Virus record (IMG/VR): IMGVR_UViG_3300031569_000941
Span: 1-24,098 of that record
From: a virus
Length of the DNA stretch: 24,098 nucleotides
Direction: 5' to 3' (one strand)
Shown here: positions 6,759 to 24,098 of the stretch, in pieces
How the letters are laid out: the number at the start of each line of letters is the position of its first letter
Numbering within the stretch: the stretch's first letter is position 1
Notes under the pieces: generated by a model
What the model was told of the DNA's origin: nothing
Database searches by the model: none
The model's input: only the letters and a program-made list of their open reading frames with translations
Made by a program: the position numbers and the translations under genes

Positions 6759-7913
6759 ATGGCCCTAAAATTAAGAAGAGGTACGAACGCAGAACGAACT
6801 GCGATTACGCCCGTAGCCGGTGAACTAGTATACACCACTGACACTAAGAAAGTGTGGGTAGGCGATGGTTCTACGGTCGGAGGTAACATTGTTACCGGGC
6901 AAAACGACATTGTAGACGATACTACACCACAACTAGGTGGCAACCTAGATTTAAATGGCAACAACATTACAGGTACAGGTAATATAAACATTACAGGTAC
7001 AGTTACAGCATCAGGTAATATTAACTTAGGCGATGGCGCCGGCGGTGATATTATTGCTGTAGGCGGCGTAGTACAAGGTGCATTGATCCCAGATGTATCA
7101 GTAGCATACAATCAAGGTTCAAACATAGCACGTTGGAACACTGGATTTTTTAGTTCCTTAGATGTTCTAGGACATATACAAGCAGATAGTATACAAGGTG
7201 ATTTAATTGCTGATGATAGTACAGTATCTTGGAACCAAACAACAAATCAATTCTCTGGCATATTTGTAGGAACATTAGAAGGTGATGTAAACGGTAGTTT
7301 ATTTGCTGACAATTCAACACTAATGGTTGATGGTGTTAATAATCTTGTTGTAGCTGATGTTAATAATACAAGGGTTACAACAGGCGATGCAATAGTTTCT
7401 AATGCAACTGGATCAAACTTACGTCTTAATTATAACGCTGTTGGCGCATCTGCTAATACTATATTAGGACAACTAGTTTTCCAAGATCAGGATGTAAGCA
7501 AAGCCATAATTCAAGGCAGACAGGGCAACATATATATAACTGCTGCTGATAACGGTGCTAAGGGTGTAACAATATACGAAACACATTCAGTACACGGCGG
7601 CATGAAGCTGCGTATTAATCCAACTAACACTGTATTCACTGAACCAACTGAAGCATTGCAGGTCGACGGTAATGCAATAATTTCAGGCGTAATTGATGCT
7701 GCATCGTTTAGAGGTTCATTAGTTGCTGATGATTCAACTACTATAGTTGATGCAATTAACAGCACTATAACAGTAGGCAGTTTTGTACAGTTTGGCAGTA
7801 TGACTACTGCCGTACGTGATGCCATTACAGCAGCTAACGGCATGGTCATTTATAACACTACATTAAACAAATTCCAAGGCTACGAAAACGGTGCTTGGGC
7901 CAGCTTGATCTAA
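6759..7913 (+). CDS. tail fibre-like virion protein with Mtd-type N-terminal domain
   Basis: A 384-residue, Asn/Gly/Thr-rich protein. Residues 1-42 (LKLRRGTNAERTAITP.AGELVYTTDTKKVWVGDGS) match the short N-terminal domain of major tropism determinant and many phage fibre proteins. Then comes a low-complexity linker with the repeat NITGTGNINITGT (about 69-82). Three copies of G[DS]L.AD[DN]ST (147-155, 179-187, 319-327) look like beta-prism or beta-helix repeats. The C-terminus (ANGMVIYNTTLNKFQGYENGAWASL, 359-383) is a common fibre or structural-protein ending. An exact late promoter and an AGGAG SD precede it. The likely role is host recognition or virion decoration on the particle surface. No enzymatic domain is visible. 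Confidence 0.85.
   Translation: MALKLRRGTNAERTAITPVAGELVYTTDTKKVWVGDGSTVGGNIVTGQNDIVDDTTPQLGGNLDLNGNNITGTGNINITGTVTASGNINLGDGAGGDIIAVGGVVQGALIPDVSVAYNQGSNIARWNTGFFSSLDVLGHIQADSIQGDLIADDSTVSWNQTTNQFSGIFVGTLEGDVNGSLFADNSTLMVDGVNNLVVADVNNTRVTTGDAIVSNATGSNLRLNYNAVGASANTILGQLVFQDQDVSKAIIQGRQGNIYITAADNGAKGVTIYETHSVHGGMKLRINPTNTVFTEPTEALQVDGNAIISGVIDAASFRGSLVADDSTTIVDAINSTITVGSFVQFGSMTTAVRDAITAANGMVIYNTTLNKFQGYENGAWASLI
6963..7002 (+). repeat. 16-bp direct repeat within the fibre gene
   Basis: AACATTACAGGTACAG occurs at 6963-6978 and again at 6987-7002, a 24-base period that encodes the N-I-T-G-T motif twice in frame. Such short in-frame repeats are a usual source of length variation in fibre genes. 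Confidence 0.8.
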
Positions 7914-7937: not shown

Positions 7938-7992
7938 AATAGGCAGATAAGTATTTGTATGGAAACATACTTAATACTTTTATCTGCCTATT
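7938..7992 (+). promoter_or_regulatory. long hairpin spanning the desaturase start codon
   Basis: AATAGGCAGATAA (7938-7950) pairs perfectly with TTATCTGCCTATT (7980-7992). Inside it GTATT (7951-7955) pairs with AATAC (7973-7977) after a two-base bulge, and GTATG (7957-7961) pairs with CATAC (7966-7970) around a GAAA tetraloop. That makes 23 base pairs in 55 bases. The ATG of the desaturase gene (7959-7961) is inside the innermost stem. It lies 24 bases after the fibre-gene stop and is followed by TTTTCTTT, so it may be a terminator for the late fibre transcript, a translational control element, or both. Confidence 0.75.
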
Positions 7993-10515: not shown

Positions 10516-11249
10516 ATGAAGCATTTGTTCATTGCGACCCAATCAGCAATACAAAAGAGCTTACACAATTATTTTATAACATGACTGGCGAAATATGGAC
10601 CGACCTAGACTTTGGTGACCAAACATATTTAAATGTGTATATGCAACGTCCGAAAGATTTAATGACTAAACGAGATATCTATAATGGCCTTAGAGGCTTT
10701 GATATGAAAGACGAATCTAATTGGCTAGACTATGTTACAGAAACACAATACGAAACAGGTGTGCTATACTATGTAAAACTACGCAAAGAAAATGCAAGGA
10801 TAGAAGATCATCAATGGCTTAACATATACTGCTTTGTACATAAAGATTTTAGAGAGCTTGGTAAGAAGTACTGGGACGAACTTGAACAGACTATACCAGA
10901 CTTAAGAAGTAACTACTGGTTTAGCTACATGGAGCATGATTGTTGTTTCCAATGGCACACCGATGGTGATACTGGATTTAGATATCATCATGTACTACTT
11001 AACGACGGTGAAGGAGTAACTAGTAGTATCGAAACTAGTGACGGTAGTGTATTCCGTAACCCCGGAGAAGGATTTATTTTAAACACTGCTAAACCTCATA
11101 GTGTTGTACCCTGTCGTAGTGTTAGACTACATGCTGTTGCTAGTGTTAATGGTCCTAAGAGTACACGTAAAGATCATAATAATCAGTGGTTAGAAGATAC
11201 AAATAAAACTTGGAAGGATTGGGAACGTGAACACGGTTATAGTACTTGA
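10497..11249 (+). CDS. putative Fe(II)/2-oxoglutarate oxygenase
   Basis: A 250-residue protein. The N-terminal 140 residues are helical and lack a known motif. The C-terminal part holds HTD (H154-x-D156 in FQWHTDGDTG), a strand RYHHVLLND, PGEGFILNTAKPHSVVP with distal His201, and Arg210 in RSVRLHAVASV, the expected order for a 2OG oxygenase. The GAGGAGG SD lies eight bases before the ATG within the preceding gene, giving a 19-base overlap. It sits in a run of four consecutive 2OG-like genes. The unusually long N-terminal part may bind a partner or substrate. Confidence 0.78.
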   Translation: MFDPKMNEAFVHCDPISNTKELTQLFYNMTGEIWTDLDFGDQTYLNVYMQRPKDLMTKRDIYNGLRGFDMKDESNWLDYVTETQYETGVLYYVKLRKENARIEDHQWLNIYCFVHKDFRELGKKYWDELEQTIPDLRSNYWFSYMEHDCCFQWHTDGDTGFRYHHVLLNDGEGVTSSIETSDGSVFRNPGEGFILNTAKPHSVVPCRSVRLHAVASVNGPKSTRKDHNNQWLEDTNKTWKDWEREHGYST

Positions 11250-11748
11250 TAGCATATTTGACGAAGACTATCTACAACAACTAGACGAACTTTGCAAGGG
11301 CGAACTACTACAATTAGATAGTGAAACAGGATCGCACGTAGGCGAATATACAGACTACGAATGGCAAATGATTAAGAATGATATTAGGACTAGTCCACAT
11401 AGACTAATGCTGTTGAGTGAAATAGGTGAACACATTGGCACAAGTTTGCCTATTAATGATTTAGAACCGATGCAACTGTTTGCTAAAAAGTTTACTTCCA
11501 GTAGTCGTATAGGCAAACACAAAGAAGACCCGGAAGTGTACGGCGACTGGGTGTGGATGCTGTATCTTACAGATGAGACTGATGGAGAATTATGTACAGA
11601 AGATATGCGTATATTGCCAAAACGCAACAGACTTGTAATAATGCGTACAGGTTTTGATCATTGGGTAGAACCGTGTACAGGCGAAAGACTTAATCTTAGT
11701 GGTTGGCCGTTTGTAACAAAACAAGTGAAACAAAGATGGAAAAATTAG
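11227..11748 (+). CDS. putative prolyl-4-hydroxylase-like Fe(II)/2-oxoglutarate oxygenase
   Basis: A 173-residue protein of the P4H-like class. It has a proximal ligand set H-x-E (H98-K-E100 in GKHKEDPE), the strand pair WVWMLYLTDE..GELC, PKRNRLVIMRTG (130-142), distal His145 (FDHWVEP) and Arg154 (TGERLNLSGWPF) for 2-oxoglutarate. This closely follows the P4H scheme, in which the Glu replaces the usual Asp, or Asp101 serves in register. It starts with GTG at 11227, supported by GGAAGGA (11212-11218) and a 23-base overlap with the previous gene. P4H enzymes hydroxylate protein prolines, but small free substrates also occur. Confidence 0.82.
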   Translation: MNTVIVLDSIFDEDYLQQLDELCKGELLQLDSETGSHVGEYTDYEWQMIKNDIRTSPHRLMLLSEIGEHIGTSLPINDLEPMQLFAKKFTSSSRIGKHKEDPEVYGDWVWMLYLTDETDGELCTEDMRILPKRNRLVIMRTGFDHWVEPCTGERLNLSGWPFVTKQVKQRWKN

Positions 11749-11751
11749 ATA

Positions 11752-12228
11752 ATGGAAAGAAAAAGATTTTATAACAACAGTCTAACTAGACAGGGAAATA
11801 CAGTTATCAAAGAAAGTCAGTGGCCTGTAGATAAAACGGCTCTTGATATATTGATAGCAGAACAACCAAACTTTCTTCCAAAAATATTAGAGTACGACAG
11901 CAATAAAATTATTTACGAATACATTGAAGGTATATCTGTTGGAAAATATTTAAAAGACATAAAAGCTGATGCACAAGATATGGTTGAAATTTATGTTCAA
12001 ATAAATGATATTTGGAAGAACTTTTTAGAACTTTCTAAAAAATATTGTAATGGTAAAATGATTTACCATAATGATCTCCATTTATATAATATGATATATT
12101 CAGAAGGTAAAGTTATTTTAACAGATATAGATAGTATAACAATTTCAAACCATGTAAGTTTCCAAACCACACACAGTTATCTATTTCACCAAATGGAAGA
12201 AATATTATATGCTAGAATTCAAAAATAA
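11752..12228 (+). CDS. mini APH/choline-kinase-like phosphotransferase
   Basis: A 158-residue protein with the catalytic half of the aminoglycoside/choline kinase fold: YHNDLHLYNM (H106-x-D108-x4-N113, Brenner motif) and LTDID (124-127, metal-binding Asp), preceded by a short N-lobe-like part with NTVIKES (Lys20 may contact ATP) and the hinge-like YEYIEG (55-60). Usual APH proteins are 250-350 residues, so much of the N-lobe and the C-terminal helices are missing. This resembles short phage and Mimivirus-type members. The SD is weak. The last 20 bases overlap the sulfotransferase gene. The substrate is unknown; a hydroxylated product of neighbouring enzymes is an attractive guess. Confidence 0.78.
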   Translation: MERKRFYNNSLTRQGNTVIKESQWPVDKTALDILIAEQPNFLPKILEYDSNKIIYEYIEGISVGKYLKDIKADAQDMVEIYVQINDIWKNFLELSKKYCNGKMIYHNDLHLYNMIYSEGKVILTDIDSITISNHVSFQTTHSYLFHQMEEILYARIQK

Positions 12229-12754
12229 AATATTATTACACATTCCTAAATGTGCAGGAACAAGTATTCTGACAGCTCTTAAACTTGATGTGTGGAATGG
12301 TGATGATCATTATAATGAAAATTATGATGCACGTATACACTACAATGATATTCAACAAACACATATACCTGCAAAAGATATAAAAATAGACAAGCCAAAA
12401 GTTGCGTTTGTGCGTAATCCTTGGGACAGAACAGTTTCAAGGTATTGGTATTGCAAAAAAAGATACAAAGTACAAGAAACTTTTGAAGAGTTTGTGCAAC
12501 AAAAAATAATGAAAGTAGATTACGACTGGGGTCCACCTAGTTGGAGATGTCAAAGTGATTGGTTAGATGAAAATACAGTTTTCTACAAAATAGAAGACGG
12601 TATAGAAAAAGTTTTACATAATGAATTTGGTGTTAACATAAAATTACCAATAATTAACGGAATGAAAATTAATAATTATAAAATTGAAGATAAAAACATA
12701 TATGATTTAATTGGTCAGTATTATGACAAAGATATAAAACTATTTAATTATTAA
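12209..12754 (+). CDS. sulfotransferase, Sulfotransfer_2-like
   Basis: A 181-residue P-loop-type sulfotransferase. HIPKCAGTS (11-19) matches the 5'-phosphosulfate-binding loop, and FVRNPWDRTVSRY (67-79) the 3'-phosphate-binding RNP..R..S motif. The enzyme moves a sulfuryl group from PAPS to a hydroxyl or amine, typically on a glycan. The family usually has 230-300 residues, so this is a compact version lacking an N-terminal membrane anchor, consistent with cytosolic action. It is the last + strand gene. Its stop (12752-12754) lies inside the reading frame of the convergent minus-strand gene, with no hairpin terminator between them. Confidence 0.87.
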   Translation: MLEFKNKILLHIPKCAGTSILTALKLDVWNGDDHYNENYDARIHYNDIQQTHIPAKDIKIDKPKVAFVRNPWDRTVSRYWYCKKRYKVQETFEEFVQQKIMKVDYDWGPPSWRCQSDWLDENTVFYKIEDGIEKVLHNEFGVNIKLPIINGMKINNYKIEDKNIYDLIGQYYDKDIKLFNY

Positions 12755-13325
12755 ATACGTTGTGTAAAGTTTCCCAATCATATTCTGTATTACATACAAA
12801 ACTTATTAAAGCTCTTTCTTTTTGTGGTGGCTGAACTTTGTGCCATACCGCAGTATTCAATAATACTGGAAGTTCTTTTACAGTGATTTTATCTAAAAAT
12901 TTCCATTTTATACTTTTTGCTTTTTCTGGATTGGCATAAAAGATTCTTGGATCGTTTATTTCACAATCAGGCTCTTCCCATATAGTATCGCAATCACCTG
13001 TTCCGTAAATTGGAAAATTTAAAACCGCTGTTATTTGTTTTCCTTTTGGTATAAGACTATATTGTCCTTGAACATTTACATCAAGATGATGATGCACATG
13101 TTCTCCTGGTTTAATAATTAATATTCTAAAATGTCCACTTAAATATTTTTTGTAATTTTTTAAAGGTTCTAATATTTTTATGTGTTCATCTATTTTTAAA
13201 ATAGGAACAGGTTTAGACTCTGTGATTTCGCAATCTTTTTTATAAGTGTCTACAATTTCCTTTGCGTAGTCTTGCCAGGCAGATGTAACACCTATATTAC
13301 ATTCTAAAAAATATTCATTAAACAT
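12744..13325 (-). CDS. putative Fe(II)/2-oxoglutarate oxygenase, Asp/Asn hydroxylase-like
   Basis: A 193-residue protein and the last gene of the minus-strand run. Triad order: HHLD (H80-x-D82, within PGEHVHHHLDVN), a strand KQITAVLNFPIYGTG, then LLNTAVWHKVQPP (His162) and Arg171 with RALISFVC. The PGEHV-H-D ... LN..VWH.V layout matches aspartyl/asparaginyl hydroxylase-like proteins. Its start overlaps the end of the gene before it in transcription order by eight bases. The two stop codons at the convergent junction are only a few bases apart and no terminator is visible, so read-through into the other strand is expected. Confidence 0.78.
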   Translation of the reverse strand: MFNEYFLECNIGVTSAWQDYAKEIVDTYKKDCEITESKPVPILKIDEHIKILEPLKNYKKYLSGHFRILIIKPGEHVHHHLDVNVQGQYSLIPKGKQITAVLNFPIYGTGDCDTIWEEPDCEINDPRIFYANPEKAKSIKWKFLDKITVKELPVLLNTAVWHKVQPPQKERALISFVCNTEYDWETLHNVFNN

Positions 13326-13929
13326 TTTCTAAATCATCTGTACCATTAAGACTAAACATAAGAGCAATTCGAGGTTTGCTACTCATGTTAATTACGGCAT
13401 GTGGATATCCAATGTTAAGGAAATAAGCATTACCGTTGTCTAGGTTATATGCTTCTAGTTTGCCTTCACGTTTAAATAAATTTATTACTTGTTTGTCTCC
13501 GTAAATAGGTACAATACATCTGACAGCATAACTTACATCATAGTCAACATGAAACGGAATATTTTTTCCTGGAGCAAGTTTAGTAATTCTAATTCTACTT
13601 GCTGGTGCTTTTAATTGTGTAATTATTTTTTCAAAATAACTGCCTGTGTAATCTTCTGTAGGCACATTATATAAATGTTCTTCTTTTCGTCTTAACCTTT
13701 CCTTGATACTTGTAGTATAAGGTAATATTTCGCTAGGTGTAGTTAAATTAATTTGTTCAAAGTTATCATAAACATGGGCAACTAACTCCATATGATTATC
13801 ACACAACATTGGGTTTGCTGTTTTTACATCAACAAATTTCCCTGCAAGTGTGTCACAAGCATCTTGTAATTGTTTTAGGTCAATATCTAAATTGTAATTA
13901 TGTATACTAGGTAAGTGTTTCTTATTCAT
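13318..13929 (-). CDS. putative Fe(II)/2-oxoglutarate oxygenase, Asp/Asn hydroxylase-like
   Basis: A 203-residue protein with ITKLAPGKNIPFHVDYD (H127-x-D129), a strand RCIVPIYGDKQV, then AYFLNIGYPHAVIN (His177) and Arg187 (SKPRIALMFSL), the complete H-x-D ... H ... R set. Of the small oxygenases here it fits the aspartyl/asparaginyl beta-hydroxylase pattern (G.xI..H.D ... N...HaV.N....R) best. An AAAGGAC SD precedes the ATG at the proper distance inside the tail of the previous gene. It overlaps the next gene (12744-13325) by eight bases. The substrate is unknown. Confidence 0.82.
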   Translation of the reverse strand: MNKKHLPSIHNYNLDIDLKQLQDACDTLAGKFVDVKTANPMLCDNHMELVAHVYDNFEQINLTTPSEILPYTTSIKERLRRKEEHLYNVPTEDYTGSYFEKIITQLKAPASRIRITKLAPGKNIPFHVDYDVSYAVRCIVPIYGDKQVINLFKREGKLEAYNLDNGNAYFLNIGYPHAVINMSSKPRIALMFSLNGTDDLENV

Positions 13930-14554
13930 TAATTAGTCCTTTCAATTTACAATAACTTACATAATTTTCCCACGTATTGTAAGGCCAAAGCAAAAAACTT
14001 GCTATCTTTCTTGGTTGATTATGGCTTGATTCAATCCTGTGCCAATTGCCAACGTTAAGTAATACAGCATCTTTTTTTGTTTCAAATTTATCTATAATTT
14101 CGAATTCTTCTGTATCATTGCGTGGCAAGTTTCTTTTGTCCCAGCTCTTATACTTATTAAGTTTTTTGTCAAATCCAAAAAATGTTATATCTCCTACAGG
14201 TTCACTGAGCAAAATATTTACAGCCGCAGGACAAGTCATATGTTGCGGAATCTCATTATGGATGCTATGTTTATTATTATCAATATGGTATCCATATAAT
14301 TCTCCAGGCATCATCTGCACAATCTTAAAATGATCTAAAAATGCATCTTCAAATAGACTAAACATATTTAAAAGTCCGTTAAGTTTTAAATCTTTGACTA
14401 CTTTTTTTGAAACATAATAAACATTTTCGTCATATACTTTACAATCCATTTTGTCTTTGTATTCTTGCGATAAATCATTCCATATGTTATCAATATAATT
14501 AAGTTCAGTTCTTAAAGTGTCTGAATCAATCTTTAAATTATACGCACTTCTCAT
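13922..14554 (-). CDS. putative Fe(II)/2-oxoglutarate oxygenase, paralogue of its upstream neighbour
   Basis: A 210-residue protein with MMPGELYGYHIDNN (H90-x-D92), VNILLSEPVGDITF, VLLNVGNWHRIESS (His172) and QPRKIASFLLWPYNTW (Arg182). It shares the VNILLS.PVGD.T and FxxWPYN[ST]W motifs and overall length with the product of 14551-15210, so the two are tandem duplicates that have diverged. The ATG overlaps the stop of that gene (ATGA). The SD is poor (GAAAG). A conserved Trp-rich C-terminal WPYNTW is not typical of other oxygenases here and may mark a subfamily. Confidence 0.8.
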   Translation of the reverse strand: MRSAYNLKIDSDTLRTELNYIDNIWNDLSQEYKDKMDCKVYDENVYYVSKKVVKDLKLNGLLNMFSLFEDAFLDHFKIVQMMPGELYGYHIDNNKHSIHNEIPQHMTCPAAVNILLSEPVGDITFFGFDKKLNKYKSWDKRNLPRNDTEEFEIIDKFETKKDAVLLNVGNWHRIESSHNQPRKIASFLLWPYNTWENYVSYCKLKGLINE

Positions 14555-15210
14555 CTTTCTAAAATTACTCCTTTTGCCTTTACTGCTTCTACAATACCTT
14601 GCCAGCTATTGTAAGGCCAAAATATAAAACAAGCACTTGATCTTGGTTGTTCTACGTCTTCGCTTATAATTGTATGATGTGCTGATGTGTTAAACAATGT
14701 TGCCTTGTCTGTCAATTTAAATCTGTCTACTTCCTGAATTGTAGTCATATCTTGTCCCATTGTATCCGCGGAAATGTATTTGTTGACACTATCAGGAAAT
14801 AGATCTCCGTTGTTTGAAAATGCCCAAGGCCATAACTTTCTAAGTTCAGGATCAATATACCACACAGTAGTATCTCCAACAGGCTTGCTAAGAAGTATGT
14901 TTACATTACCAGGATGTTGTATATCCATAGGAATATCTTTGTGAAAATTTTGTTCGTTACTATCAACATGTGGCAAATATTTTTGTCCAGGATACATATT
15001 TAGGAAACGTATGCTGTCTACAAATCCGTTATTAAATATTTTTTTAAAATTAACAACAGCATCACAGCCTTGTTGACGCACAGTCTCGTCCGATACGTAA
15101 AAGCACATATCATCATACCCTGCATACTTGTATATAGGATTGTTTAAATGTTGTAATTCTTCACGTAGTTGTGTGACATCTATATCTAGCTCATAAGCGC
15201 ACGAGAACAT
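14551..15210 (-). CDS. putative Fe(II)/2-oxoglutarate oxygenase, tandem paralogue
   Basis: A 219-residue protein with NMYPGQKYLPHVDSN (H81-x-D83), VNILLSKPVGDTTVWYID, TLFNTSAHHTIIS (His178 or His179) and QPRSSACFIFWPYNSW (Arg190). I prefer ATG 15210 over ATG 15216, because AAGGG abuts 15216 directly but is six bases from 15210. It overlaps the methyltransferase gene by 20 bases and the next gene by four. Compared with its neighbour it carries a longer insert (about 118-160) between the cupin strands. The substrate is unknown. Confidence 0.8.
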   Translation of the reverse strand: MFSCAYELDIDVTQLREELQHLNNPIYKYAGYDDMCFYVSDETVRQQGCDAVVNFKKIFNNGFVDSIRFLNMYPGQKYLPHVDSNEQNFHKDIPMDIQHPGNVNILLSKPVGDTTVWYIDPELRKLWPWAFSNNGDLFPDSVNKYISADTMGQDMTTIQEVDRFKLTDKATLFNTSAHHTIISEDVEQPRSSACFIFWPYNSWQGIVEAVKAKGVILER

Positions 15211-15808
15211 AATCATCCCTTATTTTTTCTGCAGTATATTTTTTAGATGTCACATACTCATAAAATTCTTGTTGATGATTATACGCCCCCATTAGTATGT
15301 AACTATTAGGATTGCCATACTTTGCCCAATAATCAAACTGTATTTTATTTTCAGCATACAAAGGACTTACATCAAAAATCACTAGATCAAACCCATTATT
15401 CCAATCATACTTAAAAGGACTAGTGTCAAGTATTAGTGTAACATTATCACAATCTTGAAAGGTTTTTACAAGTAAATTAAAATCAAAGTAATTGTGATAC
15501 TCTTCTGGAAAATGTCTTTTAACACTCCGCTTCCAATCTTGGTCTTTAAGGTCTTCGTCTAGTCCTTTACTCTTACTTAATTCAGCTTTACCAATACTAT
15601 ATTCGCCTCTATCAGTATTTGGCATATGATTAAGTTTATGATCGTGGTAACTTTGTACAGCAAAGAAATGACTATTAGGTAATAGTTTACTTAACTTATA
15701 TGTAATTCCACCGTAATATGTACCAATTTCAATACAGCTTTTCGGCTGTAGACGTTCAGCTATTTCTTGGTGTACACTAATATTTGCGCCATCATGCATT
15801 GAATACAT
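15191..15808 (-). CDS. class I SAM-dependent methyltransferase-like protein
   Basis: A 205-residue protein with a Rossmann-type SAM site: SCIEIGTYYGGITYKL (24-39, motif I E-x-G-T-x-x-G), an acidic or aromatic strand-2 end FFAVQSYHD, and a later DLVIFDVSP strand. Layout and length resemble the Methyltransf_24 / class I caveolin-like group. The usual motif-II acid after strand 2 is replaced by Gln52, which weakens the catalytic assignment. AAGGAA lies six bases before the ATG. It overlaps genes on both sides. A phage MetK on the same genome could feed it. The acceptor is unknown; O-methylation of a product made by neighbouring enzymes is one possibility. Confidence 0.72.
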   Translation of the reverse strand: MYSMHDGANISVHQEIAERLQPKSCIEIGTYYGGITYKLSKLLPNSHFFAVQSYHDHKLNHMPNTDRGEYSIGKAELSKSKGLDEDLKDQDWKRSVKRHFPEEYHNYFDFNLLVKTFQDCDNVTLILDTSPFKYDWNNGFDLVIFDVSPLYAENKIQFDYWAKYGNPNSYILMGAYNHQQEFYEYVTSKKYTAEKIRDDYVLVRL

Positions 15809-16457
15809 CTTGTTTCCTTATAACATTTTTACTATATATACTTACGCTTTTTTCTATTAGGTCCCAGTGCTTTTTGGCATTAACCTTTCCTAATATAAAT
15901 CCTATTAGTCGATCTTCTGCATCTGCTTCTACACCATGTGCTTGGTCTTGATTGCGTATTAAAAACGCATCTGTTTCTTCTGGCACAATACAGCGATGCT
16001 TTTCTTGCCAAGACATGTCTCTTGTATAATCATATTCTTTACACATATACATTTTATCTTTGCTACCTTTTACAACGAATCGATATCCAATAGGTTCGTG
16101 TGCCATGTTGTACTCAAGTACTTCAGGCATAATAGCAAGGTGGTGTTCGTGTGTTGGTGTAACAGCATTGCCATCAATGTGTGGAGGTATCTCGTGTTTA
16201 GCTCTTGCTATACGAATATAATAATATTCGTCCATTGGCATGTATGTTTCGACCCATTCTATTAGTTCGGAATAATTTTCTTTAGCAACATCTGTCCACT
16301 GTTGTGGCTTTCCTAAAGGATTGTTGTTTTCTTTTTCTCCCAATAAAGTTTCTTCGTCCCACCAAATATAGAATTCAGGAGCATTAAATCTATCAAGTAT
16401 TTTTTGCTTGTTAGGTATTGGCGGTATTGCCAATGGTGTAAAGATAATGTCCTTCAT
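15792..16457 (-). CDS. putative Fe(II)/2-oxoglutarate oxygenase, Asp/Asn hydroxylase-like
   Basis: A 221-residue protein with IRIARAKHEIPPHIDGN (H93-x-D95), a strand GYRFVVKGSKD, then DAFLIRNQDQAHGVEAD (His174) and Arg183 (RLIGFILGKV). The IPPHIDG...HGV...R pattern matches the aspartyl/asparaginyl hydroxylase-like type. Its ATG follows the stop of the B12-type radical SAM gene with zero spacing (TAAATG), suggesting stop-start coupling. Its end overlaps the methyltransferase gene by 17 bases. The long N-terminus (1-80) holds WWDEETLLG and a helix that its relatives lack. Confidence 0.8.
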   Translation of the reverse strand: MKDIIFTPLAIPPIPNKQKILDRFNAPEFYIWWDEETLLGEKENNNPLGKPQQWTDVAKENYSELIEWVETYMPMDEYYYIRIARAKHEIPPHIDGNAVTPTHEHHLAIMPEVLEYNMAHEPIGYRFVVKGSKDKMYMCKEYDYTRDMSWQEKHRCIVPEETDAFLIRNQDQAHGVEADAEDRLIGFILGKVNAKKHWDLIEKSVSIYSKNVIRKQDVFNA

Positions 16458-17987
16458 TTATTTTTCCTTTATGTGTGCAAACGGACTAGATAATTCCATG
16501 TAATCATTTTTAATATTTAACTTAGGCATACCTAGTTCACTGCGCACTGTGTCTATGTTATCTTTAAAATAAATTAATTCTCTCCCCCTGCCTAAATTTT
16601 TATGCAAGTATCGTAAATCATATCCTTCTAAATTCAATTGTGGTGCTGGAGTAAATATCCTAGCAAGCGAAAGTTTTACTTCTTCAACACAACAACTTAT
16701 AAACGGCATATCGCTCAAGTTCTCAAAGAAATCTTTCATTGTATCTTTAGTGATAGTTTTGTCAATGCCAAAATTGTAGAAGGTATTAAAGTACCACCAA
16801 TTTAAATATATTTGTGTAATTTCATTTAAGTCATAACTACTACATTCGTATATCATTTCAAACTGTTCGTTGTTTGGTAATATAATTTTTTTAGTTTGAA
16901 TTCTATGTTCTTCTTTATATTCATTAGTTGCCATAGGTGTATTTGGCAACACATACAAAGGATAACTTCTAGCAAAGTCAATGCCTAGTTCAGGGTGTTT
17001 AAATAATGTATCAGCCCAACTGTCTGCTGTTTCTCCCGGCAACCCGATTATAAGTTCACTATTAACTTTTACATCTCTAAGTTCGTCTATAATACTCAGT
17101 AGCTTGTCTGTTGAAATATTTTTACGCTGGATTGTATCAAGCACCGCAGGTGTTAGAGTTTGCAAACTGATCTTTACATTGCGTAATTTATCATTAAAGT
17201 TATCCATTGTAAGATTCATAATTTTTGCTAGGTGGGGAGATCCGTTTTTAGCAAAGCCTGCGAATGTTAACATCATGTCGTCACGGGTTTTGTTGTCAAC
17301 AATATGTTGTACAAACTCCACATCTCTTGGCAGTATTCCGTAGTTGGCATCTAGTATTTCTAAACGCTTTACATTATCAAAACTTAATACATGTTCGATT
17401 GTTTCTTTAACTGCGGTATCTTTTAGTTGTGTAATCTTACTACGACTTACTCCGCCCCAATCACAAAATGCACAATGATACGGACACCCTCTATTAGTTT
17501 CAAATGCAACTGCTATATCATTTTCGCGAGTTAACAAGTCATCAAAAATTCCATCAGTATAAGGTGTTGGTATTGCATATTCACTATCACTAGTAGGATC
17601 TAAAAACTTTTCCCACTGTAGTTCGCCGGGGCCTGTCATATAATGATCTACGTAAGGACGTTTAAATTCTTCTAAGTTTTGTTCAGGAACATTTGGGCCA
17701 CCGTATATAACTATACCGCTTGGATTGTACTCTTTAAACTTTTGTGCTATTGTATCGTTGGCATGCTGATTCCATACGTAACAAGTTAGTCCTAGTATAT
17801 CTGTCTTTTTTAACGTTTCGTGTAGTTCAGGAGTGTCCCATTTGTTTTTATACAACGGTTCAAAAAATGTGTAGTCTCTTGCAATGTTAGGATTTTTCAT
17901 ACAATGAGAAATAAGACACCCTACAGGATAAGGCACCCAGTCATTATACGTACTACTGATTGTTCCTAAAAGGATGGTACTAGGCAT
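16458..17987 (-). CDS. B12-binding-type radical SAM enzyme
   Basis: A 509-residue protein with two visible parts. Residues 1-130 look like a cobalamin-binding Rossmann domain (VPYPVGCLISHC, TDILGLTCYVWNQH, GIVIYGGPNVPE, and an exit strand MTGPGELQWEKFL). Residues 160-370 are a radical SAM barrel with RGCPYHCAFC (C168, C172, C175 bind the 4Fe-4S cluster) and ELIIGLPGET (316-325). This is the layout of B12-dependent radical SAM enzymes such as methylases and ring-forming oxidases. Typical B12 'DxHxxG' residues are not seen, so cobalamin may bind base-off in another way or not at all. It overlaps the aminotransferase gene by 22 bases and is immediately followed by a 2OG-type gene. Confidence 0.87.
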   Translation of the reverse strand: MPSTILLGTISSTYNDWVPYPVGCLISHCMKNPNIARDYTFFEPLYKNKWDTPELHETLKKTDILGLTCYVWNQHANDTIAQKFKEYNPSGIVIYGGPNVPEQNLEEFKRPYVDHYMTGPGELQWEKFLDPTSDSEYAIPTPYTDGIFDDLLTRENDIAVAFETNRGCPYHCAFCDWGGVSRSKITQLKDTAVKETIEHVLSFDNVKRLEILDANYGILPRDVEFVQHIVDNKTRDDMMLTFAGFAKNGSPHLAKIMNLTMDNFNDKLRNVKISLQTLTPAVLDTIQRKNISTDKLLSIIDELRDVKVNSELIIGLPGETADSWADTLFKHPELGIDFARSYPLYVLPNTPMATNEYKEEHRIQTKKIILPNNEQFEMIYECSSYDLNEITQIYLNWWYFNTFYNFGIDKTITKDTMKDFFENLSDMPFISCCVEEVKLSLARIFTPAPQLNLEGYDLRYLHKNLGRGRELIYFKDNIDTVRSELGMPKLNIKNDYMELSSPFAHIKEK

Positions 17988-18733
17988 ACCCTATTTACCC
18001 CGTCTCTTTTAAATTTATCATAAGCAGGATTGTTAGTAGTTGCTAGCCACACACTATCACTGGGTGTAAATTCATATTCTCTACAAATATGATGTTGTCT
18101 AAATTCTCTATTGCGCCAAATGTATTCTATATCAAATTTATTTATAACTGTTTCAGCAACATTGTGAGCAAAGTAATTATAATATTTGGCACTGTGCGTT
18201 ATAGCTTCCAACCTTTGATCAGGGCGTCGTGTAAAGATCCAGCCTGTGCGAACATTACGTAACCCGAATGCTTTACTTAGACTATAGAATACATATTCTA
18301 CGTTGTCACTTATTTCAATTGGCTGTGCAATAGTACTTCCTACATATGCTAAATCTAATGCTATGGGCGTATGTGTTGGAACTTCTTTAAAGTTGCCGTC
18401 TTTACATGCAGGAGAACTCATATACTTTATGCAGTTATCATACTGACTGCCACGTTGCACTACCCATTGATAGTCACCGTCATCCATATATATGCTACGA
18501 GTCTCGTTAGCCATCCACCAATTTAAACCTTCAGTGATTCCATTTGTAGGATACACATAGAAGTCTTCGAGATCAATTACAGGTTTTAACCATTGTTTTA
18601 TGTTAGTAGTGTACGGATTAATGGCGTCTAAGTCGCATTTTAAAGCCCGTACAGCGGTGTTTACTTCAGGAAGTGCATAAGTACGCACTGCGGTACTCTG
18701 CTCTAATATAGCATTACAGATGCTCGTGGCCAC
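17966..18733 (-). CDS. short fold-type I PLP aminotransferase
   Basis: A 255-residue member of the class I/II aminotransferase superfamily. YPTNGITEGLNWWM (61-74) matches the phosphate-binding G-T/S turn, LDLAYVGS (126-133) contains the Asp127 that pairs with the pyridine nitrogen, and YSLSKAFGLRNVRTGW (150-165) places the Schiff-base Lys154. A full enzyme has 350-400 residues; the N-terminal arm and the small C-terminal domain are shortened here. It starts with GTG at 18733, supported by GGAGGG six bases upstream, and overlaps the previous gene by 20 bases. The substrate is unknown. It could supply an amine, or act as a histidinol-phosphate-like transaminase in a small-molecule pathway. Confidence 0.82.
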   Translation of the reverse strand: MATSICNAILEQSTAVRTYALPEVNTAVRALKCDLDAINPYTTNIKQWLKPVIDLEDFYVYPTNGITEGLNWWMANETRSIYMDDGDYQWVVQRGSQYDNCIKYMSSPACKDGNFKEVPTHTPIALDLAYVGSTIAQPIEISDNVEYVFYSLSKAFGLRNVRTGWIFTRRPDQRLEAITHSAKYYNYFAHNVAETVINKFDIEYIWRNREFRQHHICREYEFTPSDSVWLATTNNPAYDKFKRDGVNRVCLVPSF

Positions 18734-19535
18734 TTGCTACCCTCCATAATATACGTGTTCCCATATGCTCGAAGTGCCAGCGTTTATGTATAGTCACTAC
18801 TTGTTCTGCTACGTTTAAATCACCGTCTTTCCAATCATGATGATACATATATTTTTCGTTAAGAATATGATTTTGTAAATATTCAATAAGGTCTTGGCTT
18901 TCTTTTTCTGAATATCCTACTACTTCAAATATTTGATAGAACGGAAAAAAGATACCCTTATGGTTACCAAAACTTTGTATAAGTTTTACAGGATTGTCTA
19001 TATCTAAATGATCCTTAAACAGCGGCGTGTCACTGTAACGTCCTGCTTTGTATCCGCAGATAACATTTAGATCTTCAAGTTGCAATTTAACATCTTTTGG
19101 CAAGTCTTGATATGCCCATGCATTGTTTAACCAACTTGTTCTACTGCCTGCTGTACCTGTAAGTGCGTATAACCAAATTAATTTTTTACGAATAGGATTA
19201 CTAGGTTGATTAGCATGCCAGTCTAAGTCGTGTTTGTGACTAAACAAACTAGGCTTGCCTGTTAACTCATCTCCGCCTACTCTAAGTATACCTTCGCCTG
19301 CCCATACATCACCGCTGCCTCCGTAAGCACGTTGAGCATCTTTAGGATCTTGTTTTTGCACACTGCCTATTACTTCGCTAATGCGCAACAACTCTGCTTC
19401 ATCTAGATCTTGATCACGGAAGTTTAATACAAGGTGTTTGTAAATATCTTGAAATATATCAATAAGTTCATCTTCGGGCATGCCTTTTAATTTAATATCG
19501 TATTCGGCGCACCAGTTGTCACATAATAATTTCAT
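18714..19535 (-). CDS. TauD/TfdA-like 2OG dioxygenase with H-x-N at the metal site
   Basis: A 273-residue protein with the TauD-type layout: N-terminal helix and LxVGGDELTGKPSLF strand (84-98), the metal loop LDWHANQPSNP (103-113), the Gly-rich GTAGSRTSWLNNAWAYQDL (127-145), then a distal VTIHKRWH (247-254) and Arg261 or Arg265 for 2OG. In TauD the first motif is H-x-D/E. Here it reads His107-Ala-Asn109, with codon AAT. Asn could still bind Fe weakly, or the site may be a halogenase-like open position. The start has AGGGA nearby. It follows the radical SAM gene by six bases and overlaps the aminotransferase gene by 20. Confidence 0.8.
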   Translation of the reverse strand: MKLLCDNWCAEYDIKLKGMPEDELIDIFQDIYKHLVLNFRDQDLDEAELLRISEVIGSVQKQDPKDAQRAYGGSGDVWAGEGILRVGGDELTGKPSLFSHKHDLDWHANQPSNPIRKKLIWLYALTGTAGSRTSWLNNAWAYQDLPKDVKLQLEDLNVICGYKAGRYSDTPLFKDHLDIDNPVKLIQSFGNHKGIFFPFYQIFEVVGYSEKESQDLIEYLQNHILNEKYMYHHDWKDGDLNVAEQVVTIHKRWHFEHMGTRILWRVASGHEHL

Positions 19536-19541
19536 ATTTCC

Positions 19542-20654
19542 CTACACTTTCCTTTTTGGTATCTTTGAGTCAGCACTGCTTACACAACTCTTAGTTATGC
19601 ACGTCTTAGGTGTCTTAAATATAGTAAAGCCTGTTTCTATATTACCAAGGGGTGCATCGTGACAAGAATAACTGCGTTTTACCGAACCGTCTGGCTCGCG
19701 TATTATAAGTCCACTGTAACCGGCGTTACACCGCCATCCTTCAAAATTGTTGAAATTAAAGGCATTAAAACGTTCTGCTTGGTCCATATAGTACTTATCG
19801 CCCTTCGAGTCTTCGAGTTCAATTTGCATATGCCATGGAACACTAGCATCATTCTTACCTGCAACATCTGTAGGCATTCCAAAAGTAGGCTTTGGCCTAC
19901 CTGTCCACTTACGCTTGCTCTCTGTGTACGCACGTTGCGGCATACCGTTGTACAAACGCTTTAGGTTGTCCTTTGTATACCCGTCTACTACTCGGCTTGC
20001 TGTAGGGTCGCTTTGGGGCTTTAGCGTAACGTTTATGCCTTGCTTGTGAAAGAACAATGCATTTTCCCAATCACGTTCAAACCAGTCTGGTACCATTACC
20101 ATATTAATTGTAACTTGTACGTCATGCTCTTGACAGAAGATTAATTTGTCTGCAAAGTCTTGCATCTTCTCAATGCTGTTTACATGTTCTGTGTGCAAAC
20201 TTGCTGTAATACTAGCACGATGAAAGGGCTTAACTGCTTCTACATACTCTTTGTGCCACTTCATATTACGTGACATGTTTGTTGTCATGTGTACACTGGT
20301 ATAATTAGTGTTCTCTACATCGTCTGCTAGGTGTTTTAGTATATCTAAATATCCTGGGTGGAATGTAGGTTCTCCCCCGCTAAGACTAAAGTGAAAACTG
20401 TTAAAGTTATTTTCCCTAGCTTGCCTTTTTATTTCATCTATTGTTTTGAGACAGAGCTCGGTAGGTCGGTGGTCTTTACGATCACTGCGGGCGTAAGGCC
20501 AACAGTAGCTACATTTGTAGTTACAGAAGCGGCCAAGTAGCCAGCTGACAGTAAATAAATCACGGTACAACAAAGTACGCTGACCAACACTAACGATGTC
20601 GTCAAAGGGTATCTTTGAAAAATCATAATTACTCCATTTTAAATCTTCAGTCAT
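19542..20654 (-). CDS. radical SAM enzyme with C-terminal Cys region
   Basis: A 370-residue protein. The radical SAM core has GRFCNYKCSYC (C44, C48, C51) and LSGGEPTFHP (91-100) for SAM binding. The C-terminal part holds WRCNAGYSG, SYSCHD and CITKSC, a Cys-rich layout suggesting an auxiliary Fe-S cluster as in SPASM/twitch proteins. The opening (LFTVSWLLGRFCNYKCSYC) resembles that of the product of 22529-23701, so the two are probably paralogues. The ATG overlaps the previous stop (ATGA). The reaction is unknown. SPASM-type enzymes often modify peptides or sugars. Confidence 0.88.
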   Translation of the reverse strand: MTEDLKWSNYDFSKIPFDDIVSVGQRTLLYRDLFTVSWLLGRFCNYKCSYCWPYARSDRKDHRPTELCLKTIDEIKRQARENNFNSFHFSLSGGEPTFHPGYLDILKHLADDVENTNYTSVHMTTNMSRNMKWHKEYVEAVKPFHRASITASLHTEHVNSIEKMQDFADKLIFCQEHDVQVTINMVMVPDWFERDWENALFFHKQGINVTLKPQSDPTASRVVDGYTKDNLKRLYNGMPQRAYTESKRKWTGRPKPTFGMPTDVAGKNDASVPWHMQIELEDSKGDKYYMDQAERFNAFNFNNFEGWRCNAGYSGLIIREPDGSVKRSYSCHDAPLGNIETGFTIFKTPKTCITKSCVSSADSKIPKRKV

Positions 20655-21748
20655 AGATAACCCCTTAGTAGTTTGTACAATTCAGGGTTTGCATGTTTCC
20701 AATGTTCATTTCTTAATTCGTTCATTTTATTATCGTTTTCTACAAACACATCAAAATTTCCTGGTGTAGATAGTTCTTTGATTACTGTGTTTATTATAGC
20801 ATCATTCTTATCTTTTTCCAAGCGTTTTTTTAATTTTTCTTTAACTTGAACAGGTAAATTCCTAGGCATCATATACTCAGGGCCATCAACTAACACACAT
20901 TTTTGTATTAACTTCTTACTTTGACAGAACTTGTTTAATTGATGTAATACGTTTACATTGTAAATACTAGCAACACTATGTACATTTAGATCATAGTTAT
21001 TAGATATAAACCAATCTACAGTTTCAACAGTTTTAGCCCATTCAGACCCTTTTCTTAAAAATTCATTTAATGCGCCAGTTGCATCCATACTTAAACTAAC
21101 TGATACTTTTTTACACTGTGTGAACAGATTATGCAATTCTTCAGTAGGTATAACTGTAGTATTTGTAATTAGATTTATTCTTAAATTAGGAAGATCGCAT
21201 TGTTTTAATATTTTGATAAGTTTATCTTGTTCTAACAGCGGCTCACCACCTAGTAATTTTAAATACTTTAGTTTACTAAAATCACCGTTTTCAATTAACG
21301 GGTTAGTAATAATACCTTTAGGAATTTCTAAACCTAGTTGCTTTGCATCAGCATACCAAGAAGTACTAAGTTCAGGCATACACATTCTACATTTATTATT
21401 ACAAGTGTTACTAATACTTAAATCTAGATAAGTCAATTCAGGCGGAGTATTATTTTCTAAACTCGATAACCCATACTTTTCACTGTCGTCCCACATCTCA
21501 GTACGCATACTTTGACCGTTTAGTGCTTCGTCTTTATAGCAATACGAACATCCACTTACCGGAGTATCATTGCGCATTTGTTCTCTTAGGTCTTTCATAT
21601 ACGGATGATTTAATGGATCATTATGAAAGATATTTAAATCACTTGGTACATCGGCCCATCTATATATACAACAAGGCAATACACGACCATCAGGCCGAAT
21701 TGCCATATGGTTAAACGGCAAAGGACATGCGTATTTCTTTTTTGTCAT
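20651..21748 (-). CDS. radical SAM enzyme with N-terminal SPASM/twitch-like Cys domain
   Basis: A 365-residue protein. The N-terminal block has CPLPFNHMAIRPDGRVLPCC (C8, C26, C27) and GCSYC (C67, C70), the type of motif normally found in C-terminal SPASM or twitch domains. The radical SAM core follows with NTCNNKCRMC (C116, C120, C123) and LLGGEPLL (165-172). I chose ATG 21748 over an in-frame TTG at 21760, because the GGGGAG SD lies four bases upstream of the former and inside the latter's codons. This domain order is known for 'twitch domain' radical SAM proteins of marine microbes and phages, whose substrates are not known. The stop overlaps the next ATG. Confidence 0.87.
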   Translation of the reverse strand: MTKKKYACPLPFNHMAIRPDGRVLPCCIYRWADVPSDLNIFHNDPLNHPYMKDLREQMRNDTPVSGCSYCYKDEALNGQSMRTEMWDDSEKYGLSSLENNTPPELTYLDLSISNTCNNKCRMCMPELSTSWYADAKQLGLEIPKGIITNPLIENGDFSKLKYLKLLGGEPLLEQDKLIKILKQCDLPNLRINLITNTTVIPTEELHNLFTQCKKVSVSLSMDATGALNEFLRKGSEWAKTVETVDWFISNNYDLNVHSVASIYNVNVLHQLNKFCQSKKLIQKCVLVDGPEYMMPRNLPVQVKEKLKKRLEKDKNDAIINTVIKELSTPGNFDVFVENDNKMNELRNEHWKHANPELYKLLRGYL

Positions 21749-21766
21749 ATTACTCCCCAATTGCTG

Positions 21767-22528
21767 TTAATAGTTTAAATAAAAATTACATGCGTCTTTT
21801 GGCTGTTGCCAGTCATCTAATGATAATTCAAAGTTTTTATTATCGATCCACGTTAACATTTTTGTATACAGCATCTTATTGTTTTCTATTGTAAAATGAC
21901 ATACTCTATCGTCGTTAAACCCTAATGCTTTATCTAGTCGTTTTCTCTTAATTTGGTTAGAGGTTATCCAATGGGATTCATCGTTGTATTGAAAATCAAA
22001 AAGCGAATCAGTATTTGCAAAAATACTAACATCATTACTTGCATTATCTAACTCGTGTTCAAGTAAAGCAGGAAAGCAGGAAAGAACTAACATCTCTGGA
22101 CGTTTTTGTTTTGCGTCGGCTACCATTAAATAAGACGATATATTTTCTTTTTGTTTGTCTATCAATGCATAATAAGAGTCAACATGCTTATAAGTATATC
22201 TTAGTTCTTCAATAGGGTATTGGTTAAAACGTTTCCAGCCTCTTTGACCATGACTTGCGCTAAAGTGTTCCTCATGAGGTTGATTAACTTTATGTGCAAT
22301 CTCAGGAATATATCCTCGCATCGGATCTGATACTACCCAAATTATATGACTATAATTATCTTGGTAATGTTCTAGAAATTTAAGATAACTCCAGTAAACT
22401 CCTGATCCACTTACTGCATAGTTGTCTACATCAAACTTTTCTGCTAATTGAGATACCCAGGCATATTGTTCTAGTCGACCGTATGCTACTGCAAAACTGT
22501 CACCTAAAATTAGAATACGTTCTTTCAT
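21767..22528 (-). CDS. SGNH/GDSL-like hydrolase
   Basis: A 253-residue protein opening RILILGDSFAVAYG, with Ser11 in the GDS block-I motif and a block-II-like YAVSGSGVYWSY (Gly44 region). These enzymes cleave or form esters, often acetyl groups on glycans. The final catalytic D-x-x-H motif is not clear. The nearest candidate is DDRVCH close to the C-terminus (about 205-210), one residue off the usual spacing. There is no signal peptide, so action in the cytoplasm is likely. The start ATG follows the previous stop with no gap (TGAATG). It sits between two radical SAM genes. A carbohydrate O-acetyl role is inference. Confidence 0.77.
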   Translation of the reverse strand: MKERILILGDSFAVAYGRLEQYAWVSQLAEKFDVDNYAVSGSGVYWSYLKFLEHYQDNYSHIIWVVSDPMRGYIPEIAHKVNQPHEEHFSASHGQRGWKRFNQYPIEELRYTYKHVDSYYALIDKQKENISSYLMVADAKQKRPEMLVLSCFPALLEHELDNASNDVSIFANTDSLFDFQYNDESHWITSNQIKRKRLDKALGFNDDRVCHFTIENNKMLYTKMLTWIDNKNFELSLDDWQQPKDACNFYLNY

Positions 22529-23701
22529 TCATTCTATCTCTTTTAATACTGATGTATCTATGTGATTTTTTACTACATCTAAATAATTTTTAGAAAACTT
22601 ACTCTTAGGCGCACATAACCCACAGCCGCAAGTTTGTCGTGGGCATGTTATAGTTGGCATAGAGTTTGATTCTAACATTTTCTTTAGGTCTGCAATTATT
22701 GCTTTGCCTTCACTTATTTTACCTATTGGTCCTCTAGTACCGTCAAATTTTGCCTGACATGTTTGATGATGGAACACGCTATCAGTTTGCTGCTCTAAAT
22801 GCAAGAAGAACCAATTTACACTACACTTCCAACCTTTAAATTCACGTAGGTCAACAAATGTAGCATTACGACTAACACCTTTATTTGACAAACACATTTC
22901 TCTACTACCACAACAAGGACGTCCAGCAGCCATACCAAGTTTTTTCTTTTCAGTTGTTTTTTGTCCTACAGCACTTAACACTGCCGCGGCTTCTTTTTCA
23001 TTATTTAATTTGGCATTCTTTTTGTTCCAATGGTCTTTCATGTACTGAAGTTGATCGGCATTGTACTTGTGGGCAAAGGTAGCCCTGCTATCTTTTTCTT
23101 CGCCTATAACTCTAGGAACATACTTTACACCATGTGTATCTAAAAAGCTACACAAGTCTTTACACTCGTCAAAGTGTTCTGCATGAAACATTACATTAAC
23201 ACTTAATGTTAATCCATGCTTTCGACCTTCGGTATGGAACTGTAGAATTCTATCACGCACTTGTTTTTTAAGTTTTTCGTTACTCTCAGCATGGTAGCTT
23301 ACAGTAATGTGTCGCATATTTTCCATAACTTTTTGTGCCATCTTTTCGCCCATGGCACCGTTACTTGTAAGAGCAAAGTTTGCCTTCCAACGATCGGCAT
23401 ACTTAGATTCATATTCACTTTTTAAATACTGAATAAATGGAATGAAGTTAGGATTAACAGTTGGTTCACCGCCTGTAAAACTTATACTTGTAAATTTAAA
23501 ATCTCTATATTGCATATGTAGATCAATATATTCAAACAGAAAATTCGTGTTTGCTTTAAGTTCATCTAACGTAGCATGTTTACTAAAATTGTCATGTCTA
23601 GTAATTGGACAATAACTACAATCATAATTGCAACGTCTACCAGTATCCCATGTTACTTGAAAAACTTTACCGGTAATTAAATCGACGGTATCAAAGCTCA
23701 A
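22529..23701 (-). CDS. radical SAM enzyme with Cys-rich C-terminal domain
   Basis: A 390-residue protein. The core motif is GRRCNYDCSYC (C24, C28, C31), with the SAM-binding FTGGEPTVNP (75-84). The C-terminal third contains many Cys: RPCCGSREMC, WKCSVNW, HQTCQ and TCPRQTCGCGLC, likely one or two auxiliary clusters. The start is TTG at 23701, supported by an excellent AAGGAG SD seven bases upstream, and overlaps the QueC-like gene by 11 bases. It directly follows that gene, so a link to 7-deazaguanine chemistry is possible, but it lacks the short QueE layout and its CxxxCxxC spacing is the usual one, so QueE is not indicated. Confidence 0.86.
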   Translation of the reverse strand: MSFDTVDLITGKVFQVTWDTGRRCNYDCSYCPITRHDNFSKHATLDELKANTNFLFEYIDLHMQYRDFKFTSISFTGGEPTVNPNFIPFIQYLKSEYESKYADRWKANFALTSNGAMGEKMAQKVMENMRHITVSYHAESNEKLKKQVRDRILQFHTEGRKHGLTLSVNVMFHAEHFDECKDLCSFLDTHGVKYVPRVIGEEKDSRATFAHKYNADQLQYMKDHWNKKNAKLNNEKEAAAVLSAVGQKTTEKKKLGMAAGRPCCGSREMCLSNKGVSRNATFVDLREFKGWKCSVNWFFLHLEQQTDSVFHHQTCQAKFDGTRGPIGKISEGKAIIADLKKMLESNSMPTITCPRQTCGCGLCAPKSKFSKNYLDVVKNHIDTSVLKEIE

Positions 23702-24098
23702 TGTTATTCTCCTTCAAAGCCCAGCTTCTTTCTTTACACCAAAAACAATCTCCACATTCTGGAACATGCTGTCTTGGTATATATGTTGTATGATCTAATC
23801 CTACAAATTCGCCTTCGCAGCTTCTTGTAAGTTTTAATAAATCAAGTATGTTATTATCTTTGTATTGTTTTATTACCCAATCTTTTTTAGTTGTTTGCAG
23901 CGGACCCAATTTCCAATACGTTTCTTGTGCGGATAATAATATTTGTGATGATCCAGGATCTCTTGCTTCCATTCTTTTGTCAGAATAGTTAGGAGGATTT
24001 TCAGTAGTAGCGTCAAACACTGCGTCATACTTTTCTGTAATGCATAGATATTCTATGTATTGAGTTAATATTATAGCTTCGCCCGATTGCCCATCGAA
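23691..24098 (-). CDS. QueC/ExsB-like protein, C-terminal fragment cut by window edge
   Basis: The frame is open to the window end, so the GTG at 24020 is only an internal codon; 135 residues are visible. The order GEAIILTQYIEYL, a DAVFDATTEN strand, PLQTTKKDWVIKQYKDNNILDLLKLTRSC and a C-terminal ECGDCFWCKERSWAL resembles 7-cyano-7-deazaguanine synthase (QueC), whose ending is LT.SC...CG.C..C..R..AF. Cys94, 115, 118 and 121 would form the zinc site (C-x20-C-x2-C-x2-C), with a longer gap than in bacterial QueC. The PP-loop ATP-binding N-terminus lies outside the window. QueC makes preQ0, a precursor of deazaguanine in DNA or tRNA. A related amidoligase or ATP-pyrophosphatase role cannot be excluded. 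Confidence 0.7.
   Translation of the reverse strand, partial: FDGQSGEAIILTQYIEYLCITEKYDAVFDATTENPPNYSDKRMEARDPGSSQILLSAQETYWKLGPLQTTKKDWVIKQYKDNNILDLLKLTRSCEGEFVGLDHTTYIPRQHVPECGDCFWCKERSWALKENNIEL

Follow-up and report, generated by a model that had tools for sequence, protein, structure and literature searches.

Minus-strand run of radical SAM enzymes

The window analyzed here is the 24,098-nucleotide IMG/VR virus record IMGVR_UViG_3300031569_000941, which is itself a contig fragment and for which a viral origin is supported. Its minus strand carries genes for four radical S-adenosylmethionine (rSAM) enzymes, here named rSAM1 to rSAM4 in the direction of transcription (starting at 22529, 20651, 19542, and 16458, respectively; Table 1). 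An initial annotation had placed these four open reading frames (ORFs) in one run at 16458–23701. All four were confirmed, each protein exceeds the PF04055 cut-off (60.7, 50.2, 42.9, and 35.6 bits), and neighboring minus-strand genes from 24098 down to 12744 overlap slightly or are separated by no more than 6 nt. However, the run continues beyond 23701, where a fragment of a QueC-like PP-loop ATPase gene overlaps rSAM1 by 11 nt and leaves the contig, such that the number four is a product of truncation. The window is a piece of contig that ends within a larger rSAM island.

The CxxxCxxC motif is intact in all four proteins, and GGEP is found in rSAM1, rSAM2, and rSAM3 and is absent from rSAM4, in agreement with the initial annotation. 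Among composition-shuffled copies of each protein, CxxxCxxC combined with GGE at the right distance occurred in 0 to 0.005%, indicating that this combination is not due to chance. The distinct architectures proposed earlier were also recovered. The rSAM2 protein has a SPASM/twitch block (PF13186) at residues 12–74 and scores 242.1 bits for NF033640 (N_Twi_rSAM; cut-off 170), whereas rSAM3 and rSAM1, both with Cys-rich C-termini, miss this cut-off (48.8 and 28.9 bits, respectively). Membership of all four in one housekeeping family was rejected, because no curated equivalog cut-off is reached by any of them; the scores are 39.8–43.9 bits for the MoaA model (cut-off 284) and 36.1–43.4 bits for the prokaryotic viperin model NF038283 (cut-off 180). 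In comparison with relatives, three genes have a ratio of nonsynonymous to synonymous substitution rates (dN/dS) of 0.04–0.08, and the N-twitch gene has one of about 0.2; synonymous sites are close to saturated. This mostly synonymous divergence shows that the four genes are maintained by selection.

For rSAM4, the AlphaFold model (pLDDT 82) aligns with TokK over its full length (486 of 509 residues, Z 23.9, root-mean-square deviation 3.7), and residues 1–131 match corrinoid-binding proteins (1y80, Z 10.2). The likeness to TokK and CysS covers the whole predicted fold, including the corrinoid-binding N-terminal domain. However, sequence identity in the alignment is 19–24%, and the protein is some 150 residues shorter than TokK. 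It does not match PF02310 and, at 158.6 bits, stays below the curated cut-off of 700 for the KedN5 family of cobalamin (B12)-dependent rSAM enzymes (NF033712). The predicted structure supports a cobalamin-dependent class B type with a corrinoid-binding N-terminal fold and an rSAM core. The protein also matches the PADLOC defence candidate PDC-M51A (93 bits).

A core enzyme within an exchangeable array

IMG/VR was scanned with three window proteins, which yielded 113 loci (75 after redundancy removal), and 26 longer related viral records were selected because they hold such relatives. A hidden Markov model search found 822 rSAM-like ORFs across the 113 loci, 797 of which have CxxxCxxC, at a density of up to 13 per 21 kb. 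The longer records each have 1 to 21 PF04055 matches (9–21 in 24 of the 26). When the rSAM ORFs of at least 280 aa from the 75 loci and the window (516 in total) were clustered at 45% identity, 166 families resulted. Of 261 pairs of adjacent rSAM genes, 250 are co-stranded, and the median spacing is −8 nt as calculated from longest-ORF starts, which biases the value slightly towards overlap. One 170-kb relative has 24 rSAM ORFs together with homologs of T4-type portal, protease, capsid, polymerase, clamp loader, gp46/47, gp55, and gp25 proteins. Other families recurring in these islands are PP-loop ATPases, nitroreductases, 2-oxoglutarate (2OG) oxygenases, short-chain dehydrogenase/reductase (SDR)-like proteins, aminotransferases, and desaturases. 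A 170-kb phage contig has, inside its rSAM region, a gene (G014:87768-89183; L125) homologous to the PrnA-like tryptophan halogenase gene of HTVC008M.

The initial annotation had argued that four such enzymes on one phage point to a specific product and had proposed a search for the same set in other phages. Orthologs of all four co-occur in only one of the 75 non-redundant loci. Most often, rSAM3 is the only one of the four with an ortholog (43 loci); next come rSAM1 with rSAM3 (nine loci) and rSAM1 with rSAM2 and rSAM3 (seven loci). In addition, the cobalamin-type gene belongs to a syntenic block of its own, which includes the genes for TauD, the aminotransferase, an unassigned protein, a methyltransferase, and 2OG oxygenases. 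A single product of these four enzymes acting together is therefore not supported. The conserved unit is one core enzyme, rSAM3, with an exchangeable array around it.

At least 592 matching IMG/VR stretches encode a relative of the core enzyme, with the best 80 being 78–97% identical, and orthologs are present in 67 loci. A second near-constant component, an N-twitch rSAM of about 470 aa, occurs in 20 of 23 phage records. Two records of long or medium length (G017 and G008) have the core enzyme with almost no other rSAM, and both have a nitroreductase-like gene immediately after the core gene. In two phages, a PF01048 (MTAN-like) nucleosidase gene abuts the core gene (L060:9450-10004 and G019:126121-126573). 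The PF01048 family includes enzymes that remove SAM by-products; the nucleosidase is a possible remover of 5′-deoxyadenosine, and its position would be consistent with active rSAM chemistry.

The AlphaFold model of the core enzyme (pTM 0.87) has a full rSAM domain and a C-terminal part that holds four cysteines (309, 331, 352, and 357). These are invariant in 37 phage and bacterial orthologs and appear suited to one auxiliary cluster. The closest solved structures include BlsE (Z 16.9), SkfB (15.9), MoaA (15.8), ChlB, SuiB, anSME, CteB, and viperin, with Z values of 14–17 across BlsE, SkfB, MoaA, anSME, and viperin. Their scores lie close together and their substrates include nucleosides, peptides, and nucleotides, so that the fold alone gives no substrate. 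Among viral structure models, those of Campylobacter phages are the nearest that belong to named isolates.

Another recurrent unit involves rSAM1. Its orthologs (at least 48% identity) come from 40 sources, or 27 once redundancy is removed and the window is counted. Among the 26 non-redundant rSAM1 cases in which a preceding gene is present, the window being one of them, 16 have a PP-loop gene immediately upstream, which in the relatives is complete or fused. In six of these 16, an N-twitch rSAM is fused to the QueC-like PP-loop protein in a single ORF of 827–873 aa, which directly links rSAM and PP-loop chemistry.

Cellular relatives are found mainly in Bdellovibrionota. A scan of a genome collection with the core enzyme returned 15 loci, 12 of which have close homologs and come from Bdellovibrionota metagenome-assembled genomes or one bacterium that groups with them. 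The core enzyme and the ~470-aa N-twitch enzyme of these bacteria share 59–67% and 55–63% identity, respectively, with the phage homologs and are usually encoded side by side. A further rSAM of about 360 aa and a DGD-motif glycosyltransferase-like or family 2 glycosyltransferase (GT2) protein are often added. The module resembles the phage islands in these features but differs in being chromosomal. The core gene was found in 17 of 291 sampled Bdellovibrionota genomes and is therefore accessory in this group. In the core-enzyme tree, most phage sequences fall on one side and the bacterial sequences on the other, with one divergent phage sequence (L110) placed among the latter. Two genome hits outside Bdellovibrionota that group with the phages (L143 and L145) have phage-like neighbors and are read as probable phage contigs in bins. 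Bdellovibrionota was considered as the host but not adopted, given the 17 of 291 genomes and the largely separate phage and bacterial groups.

Beyond the rSAM genes, three of the four small 2OG-oxygenase-like genes at the distal end of the run form one paralogous cluster around the member of the Asp/Arg hydroxylase family (Table 1). Facing the run, the plus strand at 7959–12754 carries genes for fatty-acid-desaturase-like, putative GNAT-like, SDR-like, 2OG, kinase-like (RIO1), and sulfotransferase proteins.

Table 1. Features of the window, and rSAM/PP-loop fusions in related loci.
Feature	Position	Strand	Evidence
C-terminal part of QueC-like PP-loop ATPase, zinc-ribbon CGDCFWCKER	23691..24098	-	phrog_1550 QueC-like, E=1.8e-4; cut by contig end
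rSAM1, Cys-rich C-terminus, TTG start uncertain	22529..23701	-	PF04055, 48.4 bits
Putative SGNH-hydrolase-like protein, GDSF motif	21767..22528	-	Sequence; DUF771 E=6e-4, below cut-off; no Pfam family over cut-off
rSAM2, N-terminal twitch/SPASM, TTG start uncertain	20651..21760	-	NF033640, 242 bits (cut-off 170); PF13186 and PF04055
rSAM3, island core enzyme	19542..20654	-	PF04055, 58.8 bits; AlphaFold pLDDT 86.9
TauD-family Fe(II)/2OG dioxygenase	18714..19535	-	PF02668, E=2.2e-26
Aminotransferase-like, short (255 aa)	17966..18733	-	PF00155 slightly under cut-off; 45% identity to putative aminotransferase of Pelagibacter phage Mosig
rSAM4, cobalamin-dependent methyltransferase-like, TokK/CysS fold	16458..17987	-	PDB TokK, E=1.3e-46; VIA-align Z 23.9, 486 residues; KedN5 158.6 bits (cut-off 700)
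Protein 3′ of rSAM4 in relatives, possibly 2OG-oxygenase-like	15792..16457	-	Synteny in L104-L109, L112, L114; no Pfam match
Methyltransferase-like protein, same block	15191..15808	-	Methyltransf_24 E=0.0037, below cut-off; synteny
Four small 2OG-oxygenase-like genes	12744..15216	-	13318-13929: Asp/Arg hydroxylase family, PF05118 25.6 bits (cut-off 22.6)
Tail-fibre/receptor-binding-like protein, Mtd_N domain, flanks island	6759..7913	+	PF18454, E=1.5e-10
rSAM/PP-loop fusion ORFs, upstream of rSAM1 ortholog	L008:7390-10011, L009:7513-10011, L011:7528-10011, L012:7528-10011, L021:7519-10011, L109:3352-5883		

Possible functions of the island

Taken together, these patterns are best read as the truncated edge of an island of exchangeable tailoring enzymes that an uncultured, T4-related aquatic myophage carries in its tail-fibre/host-recognition region, a reading to which we assign a probability of about one half as a whole. 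That this is an exchangeable island in a T4-related phage is very likely. Its location in the host-recognition region is probable, because a gene for an Mtd_N fibre-like protein is present in the window and near the arrays in relatives, and because related cargo in the Pelagibacter phage Mosig lies between the tail fibres and VrlC. A glycan or sugar-like product is a tentative proposal. It draws on the ArnB-like aminotransferase, carbamoyltransferase, and epimerase of the Mosig island (the first two 54–59% identical to genes of the related locus L114), on two genes with a nucleotide-diphospho-sugar-transferase fold that follow the rSAM module of the Campylobacter phage CP220, and on the GT2 and DGD-motif transferase-like genes that adjoin the core in Bdellovibrionota.

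The constant core enzyme is usually accompanied by the ~470-aa N-twitch rSAM, which in the window would lie past the contig end. Around them, each phage has its own tightly coupled set of rSAMs, PP-loop ATPases, nitroreductase, 2OG oxygenases, aminotransferases, cobalamin-rSAM methylases, and others. According to this reading, these enzymes may oxidize, methylate, and aminate a glycan or a sugar-like small molecule during infection. Its final location may be the host envelope or the virion, and cassette swapping would alter the decoration. The architecture, core conservation, cassette exchange, operon-like packing, and maintenance by selection are shown by the data above, whereas the product and the catalytic steps are put forward here as candidates. 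Several points weigh against this reading. The best structural neighbors of the core enzyme, as described above, have very different substrates. Glycosyltransferases are infrequent in the arrays (the DGD-motif family is found in seven non-redundant loci), and the 25 families listed for 124 neighboring proteins include no classic glycosyltransferase. The fibre-like gene flanks one side of the island in the window and relatives, and the window covers only this side. Finally, part of the evidence for the glycan link comes from other phages and bacteria.

Among the alternatives, the one that survives best is that the rSAM/twitch enzymes are peptide maturases, producing either a modified peptide similar to ribosomally synthesized and post-translationally modified peptides (RiPPs) or a modified phage structural protein such as a fibre. 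SPASM/twitch rSAMs are typical peptide modifiers; cobalamin-type members of the arrays match RiPP C-methyltransferase and ApyD models, and SkfB, ChlB, SuiB, CteB, and anSME are among the structural neighbors of the core enzyme. However, the arrays leave little space for precursor genes. Same-strand rSAM pairs in the relatives are at least 60 nt apart in only 2 of 250 cases (0.8%; longest-ORF starts, with the median overlap given above), no gap in the window run exceeds 6 nt, and the window proteins stay below the cut-off of every maturase model. A precursor may be encoded elsewhere, and the substrate may be a fibre or another distantly encoded protein; we regard this explanation as unlikely rather than implausible.

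Somewhat less likely is that auxiliary metabolic genes with no relation to each other and no shared product gathered in an insertion-tolerant region. The extreme content turnover would fit, as would neighbors as diverse as IMPDH, P450, aldehyde dehydrogenase, and TctA. Yet the high identity of the core enzyme among its best 80 relatives, the recurrence of its companion, the operon-like packing, and the PP-loop/rSAM1 pair all argue for a shared function.

It is improbable that the QueC-like ATPase and the rSAMs produce a deazapurine-like or other base for the hypermodification of phage DNA or nucleotides. The zinc-ribbon PP-loop gene adjoining rSAM1, the fusions in six non-redundant loci, and a distant structural match between the core enzyme and a phage protein annotated as QueE are in favor of such a role. 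However, the PP-loop protein scores below the PF06508 cut-off, an island often has several QueC-like paralogs, none of the four enzymes is QueE by any curated model, and, among 23 related and possibly incomplete records, only 5 have QueD (PF01242) above its cut-off. Least likely is a role in defence or counter-defence through viperin-like antiviral nucleotide synthesis or superinfection exclusion: the three non-cobalamin enzymes match pVip models weakly, viperin folds lie near the core model, and rSAM4 has its PADLOC match, but the prokaryotic viperin scores are below cut-off and close to the MoaA scores of the same proteins.

Under the preferred reading of an exchangeable tailoring island, a bolder and rather doubtful extension is an rSAM assembly line. 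The conserved core pair, common to aquatic T4-related phages and some Bdellovibrionota, would make a shared scaffold, which each phage would diversify through a set of its own, comprising up to about 20 rSAM and other enzymes. The phage-made metabolite or glycan that results would then represent a new class. One near-constant enzyme amid such turnover of its neighbors is a clear first target for the identification of the island product.

Comparison with known phage systems

Phages with multiple rSAM genes are already known, and the island is a variant of such arrays. The T4-like Campylobacter group II phages CP220 and CPt10 have 11 and 12 rSAM proteins, respectively, including an interchangeable five-rSAM module (PMC2853527), and IBB_35 has six rSAM proteins (PMC3322345). 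The features of the CP220/CPt10 kind of module, namely adjacent rSAM genes in a T4-related phage and exchange between genomes, were all found here. Array members show a recognizable relationship to the rSAMs of CP220, and L099 encodes a relative of the CP220 amidinotransferase. In contrast, these phages have fewer rSAM enzymes than the arrays of the window relatives, in which about 20 in one phage genome exceed the published 11–12. The CP220 stretch searched has no cobalamin-rSAM match, and CP220 genes do not match the DGD-motif family of the Bdellovibrionota module. Across an isolate-phage collection of 50,697 records, rSAM1, rSAM3, and rSAM4 have no close match (for rSAM4, partial matches of 23–24% only), and neither a core-enzyme ortholog nor the ~470-aa N-twitch enzyme was found among isolate phages.

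In pelagimyophages, genomes differ by added rSAM cassettes in hypervariable host-recognition clusters that include tail fibres (PMC7029224). This note and the Campylobacter papers are all that our literature search on rSAM arrays in marine phages found. The window phage itself is not supported as a pelagimyophage, since a relative has core genes that are only distantly similar to those of HTVC008M. The cultured Pelagibacter phage Mosig (EXVC030M) carries related cargo between its tail fibres and VrlC, including a 2OG oxygenase (75% identity), TauD (69%), desaturase (75%), and aminotransferase (51%), and its island also has nitroreductases and rSAMs. Mosig and the pelagimyophage clusters differ from the arrays described here in having only a few MoaA-like rSAMs and no ortholog of the core enzyme, and the structural and replication genes of the Mosig group and the window group are distant despite the common cargo. 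Mosig offers a related, smaller, and testable island in a cultured phage. As far as the literature searched shows, the new elements of the system are the size of the array, the near-invariant core enzyme with its companion, the occurrence in Bdellovibrionota, and the rSAM/PP-loop fusion.

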